Assembly (NCBI GenBank): GCA_017625395.1
Contig: JAGALD010000062.1
Location: forward strand, 1-38,250
Source: Bacilli bacterium
GTDB lineage: Bacteria > Bacillota_I > Bacilli_A > RF39 > UBA660
Direction: 5' to 3'
DNA length: 38,250 nt
Below the pieces are notes generated by a model that saw only the letters and a list, made by a program, of their open reading frames with translations, was not told where the DNA came from and searched no databases. The position numbers were made by a program, and so were the translations under genes. Position 1 is the stretch's first letter; each line of letters opens with the position of its first letter. Shown here one piece after another: positions 32,917 to 36,406 of the stretch.

Positions 32917-32942
32917 AAAAAGGATTCACTGAATCCTTTTTA
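32917..32942. terminator. Bidirectional terminator
   Basis: AAAAGGATTC-act-GAATCCTTTT. It serves the DUF2974 gene and, read leftward, the DUF4353 gene whose stop lies in it. Confidence 0.9.
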
Positions 32943-34700
32943 TCGTCTATTTGGTTTTCCTCCTGGACCACCATGACCACCAGGTCCACCCATAGAAGTA
33001 TTACCAATAGAAGTAGAAATTGAATTAATTGTAAAGTTAGAATACTCTTCATCATTTAGTTTTATTGTATAATTTCCTTTAGATAATTCATTTGAAGAAA
33101 ATATAATTGATGAAAAACTCTTTGATGGAGTGTAAGATATTATTTCTTTATTATTTGAATCTAATATTGAAATATTTTTATCTTGATAAGTTGAATTAAA
33201 TACAATAGCCACATTGTATTGAGTAGAAGATGAACTTATTGCCTGCATCATTCCACTAGAACCTGCTGCAATAAATGTACCACCATTTACTATAAATTCT
33301 CTATCATAGTCAAGTGAACCATTTCCACTATTAGTAGGACCATCTACTGTAATATTCCCACCATAAACATACCCGCTTCCATTAATATCAATTCCGTCTC
33401 CCGTAGAATTAACATAAATAGTACCGTTATTTATAATAAGAATATTATCAGTATTACTAGCATAGTTATTTTGACCAGGTCTAGACATACTAGATGAATC
33501 CATACCACCTGCAACATTAATACCATCATCACTTGCTACAAGACTAATATTACCGCCATTTATAGTAATTTTAGCTGATTCAATTCCTTCATAACTTTTA
33601 GTAATATTAATATCACCATTATCTATAATGATTTCTTTATCAGCATGTATTCCGTCATCTCCTGATGAAATATTAATATTTCCATTAGTTATTCCAACAT
33701 AATTATTAGAGTGAATTGCGTCATCAGATGTATTTAAATTAATTGTTCCATTTTTTATTACTAGATTATCTCCTGATTTTAATCCCTTTGCACTAGCTGT
33801 AGTATCATCATTACCATAGTCTTGCATAGGGGATCTTCTGGGGTATGGTTGCATTCCCCAATCTCCCCAGTCATCACTAGTACTATCATTTCCACTACCA
33901 CCACCAGTAGTAATATTAAAAGTACCATTTTCAATAACTAACTTTGTAATAGCAGAAATACCATCAAGTTCTGACTTAATATTAAAATTACCATTTTCAA
34001 TTAAAACATATCCTTTTTCACTATCTTCTTCATTAGTTGTTTTTATTGCATCTCCTCCAGATTTTATTTCAAAATTTCCATCTAATATATATATAGAATC
34101 TTTTCCACGAATAGCATCATCAACTGATGTAATAGAGTAGTCACCATTTATAATTTTTAAATCATCTTTACTAACAATACCATCTTGATAATTTGACACA
34201 ATTGTTAGTTTTCCAACCCCATCAAAAACAAGATCATCTTTGCTATAAATAACCCCATTAACATCTTCATCTAAATTAGAATAAGTACTACCATCTTCTA
34301 AATAATTATTGGAATTTTCTTCAAGATAGATAAGAACTGTTTCAGCTTGTTCTATAATTACAGCAGGCCCATTACTATTTTTAATATTTACATTATTTAA
34401 CACAAGTTTTACATTTCCATTAGCATTAACAGTAACTGCACCATCACTAATGTTACCTGATAGAGTATAAGTACCACTTTCAGTAATGTTAATGCTTTCA
34501 GTTAATGTTTCTTCATGTGATTCATAATCCTCCCAAGAAATCTTTTCATCATCATCATCAGTGTTTATATTAGTATCTATATCTTCAACTGTTAAAGTTT
34601 TTATAACATTATCGTCTTCCAAAAAAAGTGTGTATGAAAAATATAAAACTATTATTATCAAAAGAGCTACAACTATTAGTATCACGTTATTCTTTTTCAT
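32940..34700 (-). CDS. Membrane-anchored DUF4353 (carbohydrate-binding-like) beta-helix protein
   Basis: 586 residues: a signal anchor (about 4-26), an acidic linker (DDDDEK), then many short repeats of the type DGIxAxxxIxIxNGxxNI (about 70-480), for instance SSGDDGIHADKEIIIDNGDI. These form a right-handed beta-helix annotated in databases as DUF4353. A Trp/Pro insert (DDWGDWGMQPYPRR) and a Gly/Pro tail (GGPGGHGGPGGKPNRR) stand out. It is the last gene of a VTC-DUF4956-DUF4353 operon, a set often found together, sometimes with CotH. It probably acts outside the membrane on a surface polymer; this is inference from context. Confidence 0.87.
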   Translation of the reverse strand: MKKNNVILIVVALLIIIVLYFSYTLFLEDDNVIKTLTVEDIDTNINTDDDDEKISWEDYESHEETLTESINITESGTYTLSGNISDGAVTVNANGNVKLVLNNVNIKNSNGPAVIIEQAETVLIYLEENSNNYLEDGSTYSNLDEDVNGVIYSKDDLVFDGVGKLTIVSNYQDGIVSKDDLKIINGDYSITSVDDAIRGKDSIYILDGNFEIKSGGDAIKTTNEEDSEKGYVLIENGNFNIKSELDGISAITKLVIENGTFNITTGGGSGNDSTSDDWGDWGMQPYPRRSPMQDYGNDDTTASAKGLKSGDNLVIKNGTINLNTSDDAIHSNNYVGITNGNINISSGDDGIHADKEIIIDNGDINITKSYEGIESAKITINGGNISLVASDDGINVAGGMDSSSMSRPGQNNYASNTDNILIINNGTIYVNSTGDGIDINGSGYVYGGNITVDGPTNSGNGSLDYDREFIVNGGTFIAAGSSGMMQAISSSSTQYNVAIVFNSTYQDKNISILDSNNKEIISYTPSKSFSSIIFSSNELSKGNYTIKLNDEEYSNFTINSISTSIGNTSMGGPGGHGGPGGKPNRR

Positions 34701-34712
34701 AAAATCTCCTTA

Positions 34713-35384
34713 TTATAAATCGTTTTCTCCAAGTGGGTGAGTAAGTATAATTTTTAAATTACCATTTTTAATTCTTAAATCATCAATAAATTCTTTTTCA
34801 TTAATATCTTTATCAAGAGTAACTCTATAAGTAAGTTCAAAAATACTTCCTAAATTTGTAGTCTTAACTTGGTCAAGTGATACTTTAGTAGTGTATTTTT
34901 CGAATGTCTTATCAAATATTTTTGTATAATCTAAATTTTCAGGTATAGATATCTTTAAAATTCTATCATATTTATTAACATCAAATAATTTAACTTTATT
35001 TAATAGTAAAAGAGAAATACATCCAATAACAGTAATAATACCTGCAAAAAGAAGTTGTCCCATACCAGTTGCAAGTCCAACAGTCATAGAAAAGAAAACA
35101 CTTAATATTTCTTTAGAGTTTCCAGGTAGGCTTCTAAATCTTACAAGACTAAATGCACCAAGTATTGCAACAGAAGTTCCTAAATTACCATTAACCATTA
35201 TTATTACAGTTTCTACTAATAATGGAAGAATACTAATAGTAACTAAAAAATTCTTATTGTATTTAGAAGTTACCTTGTGAGTAAATGCAATTAAAAGACC
35301 TAAAACAATTGATACTAATGAACATAATAAAATTGGAGTTAGTTCTACTGAACTAGTTGAATTTGTAAAAATACTTTCTAACAT
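34713..35384 (-). CDS. DUF4956 membrane protein
   Basis: 223 residues with about four membrane helices in the first 130 (PILLCSLVSIVLGLLIAF, VTISILPLLVETVIIMV, VFFSMTVGLATGMGQLLFAG, VIGCISLLLLN). The signature ILGAFSLVRFRSLPGNSKEI sits between helices, followed by a cytoplasmic ferredoxin-like domain of about 85 residues. It typically accompanies VTC polyphosphate polymerase genes in bacteria and is thought to form the channel or anchor of that complex. It overlaps the VTC gene by 7 bases (ATG within ATGTTAG) and precedes the DUF4353 gene by 12 bases. Confidence 0.88.
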   Translation of the reverse strand: MLESIFTNSTSSVELTPILLCSLVSIVLGLLIAFTHKVTSKYNKNFLVTISILPLLVETVIIMVNGNLGTSVAILGAFSLVRFRSLPGNSKEILSVFFSMTVGLATGMGQLLFAGIITVIGCISLLLLNKVKLFDVNKYDRILKISIPENLDYTKIFDKTFEKYTTKVSLDQVKTTNLGSIFELTYRVTLDKDINEKEFIDDLRIKNGNLKIILTHPLGENDL

Positions 35385-36070
35385 AATTGCTTCATCCTTT
35401 CTTTTTTATAAATGCTTCCATATTTTGAAAATGATGTTGGATAAATTTTTAACTCTGATAATGCTCTAACCAACCAAAGTAGCATAGCACCTAATGTTTT
35501 AATTTCCATTATGTATGTATCATCATCAAAAAATAACTCTCCAAAGTCACCATACTCAAGCCTCAAATTATCTTTTCTACTTCTTAGATTATTATCAAAA
35601 GTAATACGAAGTTCTGCGTCTTCGATACCTTTATAACTTTGTCTATCATATCCAATAAAGATTGAAGGTTTAAGCTTATGAAATTCGAAATAATAATTTA
35701 TTTCTTTCATAATTTGATTAGTCTCATCATAATTTTTCTTTTTCAAATATGAATAGAAATCCTTTAGCTTTAACTTAATTCTTCTTTTTCCAACAATCCC
35801 TTTATATTTCTCTTTTATTTCTAAAAATACATCACTATAAATATTCGGAGTACCATAACTTCTAAGTCTTAATTTTTCTTTAAAAGTAGGTTTTTCTAAA
35901 GAATTTATTATTAAGTCATTATTCTTAGTATCAAAGTAAATATTGCATATAGTACTTTCAAAATATTTATCTTTTTCAATATGTTCATCTATTTCTTTTA
36001 ATAAATTTTCTTTTTGATCTTTCGTTAATACATATTTTTGTTCAACCCGTTGAAATATATTTTCACTCAT
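35378..36070 (-). CDS. VTC-domain polyphosphate polymerase-like protein
   Basis: 230 residues with the VTC tunnel-fold pattern: FQRVEQKYVLT at the start, YFDTKN, KEKLRLRSYG, FLEIKEKYKGIVGKRRIKLK, IGYDRQSYKG, LRITFDNN, YIMEIKTLGAMLLWLVR and SFSKYG near the end. The Arg/Lys/Glu ladder lines the tunnel that binds nucleotide and polyphosphate in yeast Vtc4. Whether bacterial members make polyphosphate or another polymer is not settled. ATG lies behind AGGAGGA. First gene of the three-gene operon. Confidence 0.88.
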   Translation of the reverse strand: MSENIFQRVEQKYVLTKDQKENLLKEIDEHIEKDKYFESTICNIYFDTKNNDLIINSLEKPTFKEKLRLRSYGTPNIYSDVFLEIKEKYKGIVGKRRIKLKLKDFYSYLKKKNYDETNQIMKEINYYFEFHKLKPSIFIGYDRQSYKGIEDAELRITFDNNLRSRKDNLRLEYGDFGELFFDDDTYIMEIKTLGAMLLWLVRALSELKIYPTSFSKYGSIYKKERMKQLC

Positions 36071-36163: not shown

Positions 36164-36193
36164 TTTACATATTAAAATAAGTTAATGTATAAT
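36164..36193 (+). promoter_or_regulatory. Promoter of the attenuator leader
   Basis: TTTACA (36164-36169), 18 bases, perfect TATAAT (36188-36193). It predicts a start near 36200, just upstream of the leader SD. Confidence 0.72.
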
Positions 36194-36211
36194 TTGTCTT
36201 GGAGGGATATT

Positions 36212-36247
36212 ATGATTATTTCTAGAGTTATCGGATATAAGAAATAA
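36212..36247 (+). CDS. 11-residue leader peptide of an attenuator
   Basis: ATG 36212 follows a strong SD (GGAGGG, 36201-36206) and encodes MIISRVIGYKK before TAA. Hairpin 1 begins at the very next base. Short leader peptides of this design, in which a ribosome slowed by an antibiotic changes the fold of the RNA behind it, commonly control ABC-F ribosome-protection genes, erm genes and similar. The downstream ABC-F gene at 37727 is its probable original target. The frame is too short for statistical support, and its credibility comes from the promoter, SD and hairpins around it. Confidence 0.7.
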   Translation: MIISRVIGYKK

Positions 36248-36342
36248 TCACACCTAGGTCTTTTTAATAAGAAAGATGTAGGTGTGAATTTTCGTCGTGC
36301 CTACATCTGTATTACTACTATACAGATTGTATAGTTTTTTTA
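36248..36342 (+). promoter_or_regulatory. Attenuator: competing hairpins ending in a terminator
   Basis: Four overlapping stems. H1: TCACACCTA (36248) with TAGGTGTGA (36279), extended by TCTTT/AAAGA. H2: AGATGTAGG (36274) with CCTACATCT (36300). H3: ATCTGTAT (36305) with ATACAGAT (36320). H4: ACTATAC (36317) with GTATAGT (36329) and seven T, an intrinsic terminator. H1 excludes H2, H2 partly excludes H3, and H3 excludes H4. Drawn simply, a ribosome held early in the leader leaves H1 and H3 free and favours read-through, while one at the leader end favours H2 and termination. Confidence 0.75.
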
Positions 36343-36377: not shown

Positions 36378-36406
36378 TTGACAAACATTAGTTTGATAGT
36401 TATGAT
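36378..36406 (+). promoter_or_regulatory. Near-consensus promoter at the left end of the TnpB element
   Basis: TTGACA (36378-36383), 17 bases, TATGAT (36401-36406). It drives tnpB and may read on into the ABC-F gene. Confidence 0.75.

Follow-up and report, generated by a model that had tools for sequence, protein, structure and literature searches.

In the his attenuator of Salmonella, ribosome stalling leads to pairing of segments B:C and D:E and to read-through, while completion of the leader peptide leads to the E:F terminator (PMC4046918). Genes for ABC-F ATPases of the antibiotic resistance (ARE) type are typically controlled by ribosome stalling on an upstream open reading frame (uORF) (PMC10314930, PMC9226507, PMC10201436). 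For vmlR, the leader contains an anti-antiterminator, an antiterminator and a terminator, and the stalled ribosome prevents formation of the first hairpin (PMC9226507, PMC10201436, PMC10314930). Candidate His attenuators were described in 2022 from the Erysipelotrichales, the Peptostreptococcaceae and the B. cereus group, with three to five consecutive His codons followed by attenuator and terminator hairpins (PMC9413887). Here we describe a leader in a 38,250-nucleotide stretch of DNA from a Bacilli bacterium (contig JAGALD010000062.1, numbered C31 here, from a draft genome of 1.49 Mb; the whole stretch is referred to as the window). The leader lies upstream of an ABC-F ATPase gene, and the locus is very probably a ribosome-mediated transcription attenuator of that gene with a four-hairpin logic of the his operon type.

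The window leader consists of a short open reading frame (ORF) followed by four overlapping stems, H1 to H4, and a T tract that starts inside H4 and continues past it (Table 1); the transcript is predicted to start just 5' of the leader Shine-Dalgarno sequence. A preliminary description of this DNA had noted that H1 begins at the base after the leader stop codon and that each stem competes with the next. This observation is confirmed, as the stop codon ends at 36247, H1 runs from 36248, and neighbouring stems share nucleotides. With the strands named a to e, H1 is a:b, H2 is b:c, H3 is c:d and the terminator H4 is d:e, so that a to e correspond to segments B to F of the his attenuator of Salmonella and E. 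coli, and H1 to H4 to its B:C, C:D, D:E and E:F pairings. The region folds at -41 kcal/mol, compared with -27.2 +/- 3.3 kcal/mol in dinucleotide shuffles (z -4.1). When the chain was defined mechanically, as four overlapping stems with a T tract after them, the real sequence fitted the definition and 0 of 2000 dinucleotide shuffles did, and a scan of both strands of the 38 kb window found no second four-stem chain of this kind.

Table 1. Positions of the leader elements, the insertion and the ABC-F gene in the window.
Feature	Position	Strand	Details
Promoter-like site TTTACA-18-TATAAT	36164-36193	+	Consensus scan, 11/12 matches; chance alone would give 2.9 such sites in the region
Shine-Dalgarno sequence GGAGGG of the leader ORF	36201-36206	+	From the sequence
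Leader ORF, ATG...TAA	36212-36247	+	From the sequence; MIISRVIGYKK, holding the family motif as R-V-I-G-Y
H1	36248-36287	+	36248-36256 with 36279-36287 (9 bp); inner 8 bp helix 36258-36265/36270-36277; would block H2
H2	36274-36308	+	36274-36287 with 36295-36308 (14 bp, 3 G-U); shares the 3' arm of H1; would favour termination
Conserved spacer TTTTCGTCGTG	36289-36299	+	T-G step is a candidate hairpin pause site
H3, putative antiterminator	36302-36331	+	36302-36312 with 36320-36331 (11 bp, one bulged U)
H4, putative intrinsic terminator	36317-36341	+	36317-36324 with 36328-36335; T7 tract 36335-36341
Promoter-like site TTGACA-17-TATGAT, 3' of the attenuator and 5' of tnpB	36378-36406	+	Consensus match only
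TnpB (IS200/IS605-type) gene and conserved 3' flank	~36433-~37640	+	NCBIfam IS200_TnpB, guided_TnpB; extent is where TnpB copies of relatives align
ABC-F ATPase gene, N-terminal 174 residues	37727-38250	+	NF000355 (ribosomal protection-like ABC-F) is the best match; truncated by the contig end

Homologous leaders were collected in successive searches, first with the ABC-F protein, next with a covariance model of ten leaders, and finally with a DNA pattern run against GTDB genomes. The truncated ABC-F protein of the window found no relatives among the genome contigs, and a DNA pattern of the conserved core, used instead, gave 31 loci. The resulting set comprised 39 distinct leaders (the window and 38 relatives), and the source metagenome-assembled genomes were labelled Bacilli, Bacillales, Bacillota or Erysipelotrichaceae, many of them being of rumen or gut origin. 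In 38/38 relatives the leader directly precedes an ABC-F gene of the ribosome-protection type, as in known ARE ABC-F attenuators, with the ABC-F start codon 18-30 nt past the terminator. The 3' half of the leader is found at 90% identity in relative genome G035, right before an ABC-F gene and without TnpB; only in the window are the leader and the ABC-F gene separated, by an insertion of approximately 1.37 kb. In a tree of ABC-F proteins the leader-bearing genes formed one side of a branch (support 100/99), with 13 ABC-F genes of this family that lack the leader on the other. From the arrangement in the 38 relatives and from this branch it follows that TnpB is the intruder and that the leader belongs to the ABC-F gene.

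All four stems could be formed in 39/39 leaders. The leaders were aligned with a covariance model because MAFFT alone misaligned the window leader. In H1, 92% of cells were paired and two-sided changes were found in 7 of 10 pairs; in H2 the values were 88.6% and 3 of 13 pairs. The covariation scores of these two stems were reached by 0/500 shuffles, and slid versions of the stems mostly collapsed. In the arm common to H1 and H2, one a/b/c position reads C-G-U in 22 sequences and U-A-U in 16, one relative (L042) shows a change from C-G-C to U-A-U across the shared arm, and another (L065) shows several such three-way changes, which are what one arm with two alternative pairings predicts. No Rfam 15 family matched the window leader or the tested relatives, and identity as a riboswitch or T-box, which are likewise cis-regulatory and terminator-based, was rejected for lack of a covariance-model match.

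The preliminary description had looked to homologues not only for covariation but also for retention of the reading frame alongside the hairpins, and of the leaders whose 5' end is intact, 37/37 had an ATG, a Shine-Dalgarno sequence and an open frame of 11-19 codons. The peptides share the motif [KRHQ]-x-I-[MGA]-[YF], found as RTIMY, HVIMY, KKIMY or KVIGY and in the window as RVIGY, with KGF, TAY or RLY in a minority. Among the 36 aligned leaders, Tyr or Phe occupied one position in all 36 (Phe replacing Tyr in 3), Met was replaced by Gly or Ala in 12, and Ile by Lys, Thr or Arg in 5. Different leaders use AGA, CGT or CGC at the basic position and TAT or TAC for Tyr; such synonymous changes indicate that it is the peptide, not the DNA, that is conserved. 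No run of one amino-acid codon was found in the ABC-F leaders, which have I-[MGA]-[YF] in its place.

The residues flanking the motif vary, while its distance to H1 is fixed: in leaders with an aligned motif, the codon of the middle residue lies 15-18 nt before H1 (the automatic distance for L062 was wrong owing to misalignment). The toeprint edge of a ribosome lies approximately 15-16 nt from the P-site codon, so a ribosome with the middle motif codon in the P site would end just short of H1. In leaders of the window class the frame stops directly 5' of H1, and in many relatives it continues through the 5' arm of H1; judging from these frames, a ribosome completing the peptide must, in either class, sit on that arm.

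Switching was assessed by folding with masked segments, using equilibrium folds and also transcripts ending before the 3' arm of H4. When the RNA 5' of H1 was masked and the H1 arm left free, the window RNA formed H1 at 1.00, H3 at 0.86 and H4 at 0.11 at equilibrium, and when 11 nt of H1 were masked as well, H2 and H4 stood at 1.00 in 39/39 leaders. The window folds thus follow the his-type pattern, in which a free arm gives H1 and H3 and a covered arm gives H2 and H4, as the preliminary description had reasoned by parity. With transcripts short of the 3' arm of H4 and H1 free, H1 was dominant in 34/39 leaders and H3 in 37/39. These foldings support the parity logic, which in part holds kinetically and not at equilibrium.

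In the proposed mechanism, a ribosome that reads through the peptide to the stop codon, at segment a or, in many relatives, inside it, would unfold H1; H2 would then form, segment d would stay free, and H4 would terminate transcription. A ribosome held at or before I-[MGA]-[YF] would have its 3' edge at the base of H1 and leave H1 in place, so that H3 could pair, H4 would be blocked, and transcription would go on. Since the target gene belongs to a ribosome-protection family, the natural signal is most likely an antibiotic that binds the ribosome, or else some other condition under which ribosomes are arrested on the leader peptide.

Several points weigh against this interpretation. Approximately half of the relatives, mainly of the MLNY..RTIMY class, favoured H2 and H4 at equilibrium even with H1 free, so read-through in these leaders would need H1 and H3 to form first during transcription. 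The shuffle test covered H1 and H2, with the covariation of H3 and H4 being tabulated, and the model used to fit the alignment (A3) had H2 and H4, but not H1 and H3, imposed on it. The ABC-F gene of the window is cut by the contig end. ABC-F proteins of three relatives scored 398.6, 370.0 and 390.1 against the NF000355 cut-off of 380, one of them thus falling just below it, and the scored proteins were cut at the locus end.

The direction of the switch is also indicated by related leaders with other sensing codons. Nearly all of the weaker matches to the ABC-F leader model were leaders with His runs (e.g. MLKQINRQHHHNNLHL) before hisS and other genes, and in another family of the class (L072) HHHH occurs before a hisZ-like gene. 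A reciprocal model built from 24 His leaders ranked ABC-F leaders best in 218 kb, with E down to 1.5e-5. It also found Arg leaders (RRRR or RRR) before M20 peptidases, as well as two cases named from the sequence by eye, one with a hisG-like gene and the other the second with a cysS-like gene. One Arg leader, MNKYSVNRRRRY, precedes an M20 peptidase gene in the window's own genome (L146, G000:C79:6365-6492), and similar RRR leaders occur at L158, L159, L160, L162 and L163. Tandem Cys codons (MLLYRNTCCMKSMHLSL) precede cysS, encoding cysteine--tRNA ligase, at L142, and a related attenuator precedes a cysteine--tRNA ligase gene at L164. Matches of the His model outside the family (L149-L153, E 0.01-0.02) were rejected as ordinary terminators with no codon-run leader evident.

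Relative to H1, the sensing codons occupy positions of about -10 to -21 in the His, Arg and Cys leaders, which is where I-[MGA]-[YF] sits in the ABC-F leaders. Leaders of this kind have to answer a stall at starvation codons by turning their genes on, and it follows for the shared hairpin chassis that stalling here must signal ON. Along with covariation, frame conservation and the masked folds, these cousins support the mechanism of the preliminary description, in which ribosomes held at the start of the peptide switch the system on and ribosomes finishing it switch it off; its polarity stood, and the fixed place of the motif points to a mid-peptide stall, either instead of one at the start or in addition to it. 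The His and ABC-F leaders match in their openings (GATTATTATGTTAAA), spacer (TTTGTnGTGC) and terminator (CTATACAG), and descent is therefore favoured over convergence for the chassis, judging by these matches. On balance we lean towards a single chassis with exchangeable sensors, in which runs of His (hisS, hisG and others), Arg (M20 peptidases) or Cys codons (cysS) would alternate with the [KRHQ]-x-I-[MGA]-[YF] arrest motif of the ABC-F clade, and in which a peptide swap, in either direction, would convert between an amino-acid attenuator and a sensor of ribosome inhibition.

In the genome containing the window, a TnpB-only element of the IS200/605 type lies between the attenuator and the ABC-F gene, and the promoter-like site 3' of the attenuator could drive the gene past it. 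This insertion and site may have uncoupled ABC-F from the switch in this genome. A further reading, compatible with the explanation for the family as a whole and somewhat short of an even chance, is that the switch is a relic here, with its terminator decaying and ABC-F expressed unattenuated from the insertion's own promoter. The inserted 1.37 kb and the promoter-like site agree with it, and so do the window H4, whose stem (-6.4 kcal/mol) is weaker than any other terminator stem among the 39 leaders, and the strong bias of the fold to ON. Set against these, the leader ORF, the motif and the four stems are intact, and the U7 tract is retained. A terminator scan based on G+C content does not pick up the A+T-rich window H4.

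It is also possible, if rather unlikely, that the attenuator works as described but that sensing does not depend on the peptide sequence. Whatever the peptide encoded, H1 would then be left free by drugs that halt ribosomes during initiation or just after it (lincosamides, pleuromutilins and streptogramin A), or by generally slow translation, as a ribosome on the leader start codon does likewise. What this does not explain is the motif, which has been kept at a fixed distance from H1 while its codons change synonymously and its flanks vary. A leader sensing shortage of Tyr, Ile or Met instead of an antibiotic would resemble the His, Arg and Cys cousins, which sense through codon runs at the same position of the same chassis, and Tyr or Phe is indeed found at one position throughout the aligned leaders. 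We consider this improbable, since no single codon forms a run, Met, Ile and Tyr are each replaced in some leaders in the numbers given above, and the target is an ABC-F ATPase and not an amino-acid gene. Lastly, IS200/IS605-type elements carry end hairpins and TnpB lies approximately 90 bp downstream of the stems, but the notion that the hairpins are left-end structures of the insertion, unrelated to any leader, was rejected as scarcely credible, as the leader stands directly before ABC-F without TnpB at 38 distinct loci and other TnpB copies are similar only from ~36433 onwards.

The attenuator of the ABC-F family, as preferred here, differs from that of the his operon in its target and in having no run of one codon, so that it works like an amino-acid attenuator but is not filed as one. 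A counterpart of his segment A was not found as a family feature, no family-wide test having been aimed at it, and without such a segment read-through, not termination, is predicted for the untranslated window RNA. The window leader ORF does contain a perfect 10-bp inverted repeat (36214-36223/36240-36249) that overlaps H1 by 2 nt and could be a weak counterpart of segment A; it was not seen by eye in L060, which has the same peptide class.

The likeness to the vmlR, cplR, msrD and vgaL type of attenuator lies in a uORF and a conditional terminator before an ABC-F gene. The uORFs differ, encoding 11-19 amino acids with [KRHQ]-x-I-[MGA]-[YF] here and MIN, MRI, MK[L/Q], MAGN or MYLIFM there, and as there is one more hairpin than in vmlR the sign is reversed, and here a stalled ribosome has to leave the first hairpin intact. 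The Erysipelotrichales-type His candidates are comparable in the layout of leader and hairpins, whereas they control his operons and the ABC-F leader has no His run; the His leaders of the present analysis are similar to the ABC-F leader in sequence. No description of an ABC-F gene on this chassis was found in the literature, most subscription literature lying beyond the search. We therefore put forward the ABC-F attenuator on a his-type chassis as a candidate un-catalogued system, with what appears from its sequence to be a previously undescribed arrest motif.

If this is true, the leaders constitute a natural experiment on how regulation evolves, in which a single RNA switch has several sensors and a swap takes a dozen codons, and they predict a new context-specific ribosome arrest motif. 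They would also provide a closed quantitative test of attenuation logic, with four stems and one sign inversion more than vmlR, and a route to inducible ribosome-protection genes in uncultured gut bacteria.

The spacer that follows H1, TTTTYGTCGTG, is close to invariant among the 39 leaders, and its T-G step was found in all of them, 11 nt (26 leaders) or 12 nt (13 leaders) past the base of H1. In hairpin pauses of the hisL type, approximately 10 nt separate the stem from the pause site (PMC9291695). Because the T-G spacing resembles this geometry, H1 may double as a pause hairpin for RNA polymerase.

Among the His leaders, L067, L068, L070, L124, L132, L135, L143, L145, L168 and L169 precede two conserved protein types, one with GIVFSxDIxRI and one with AGSxPxIxTxxxNxRxN. 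These had no NCBIfam or Pfam match where tested, and they are candidates for new His-related genes. On the other side of the window leader, a divergent cluster (32940-36070, minus strand) encodes a VTC-domain protein, a DUF4956 protein and a Cthe_2159 (carbohydrate-binding) protein.
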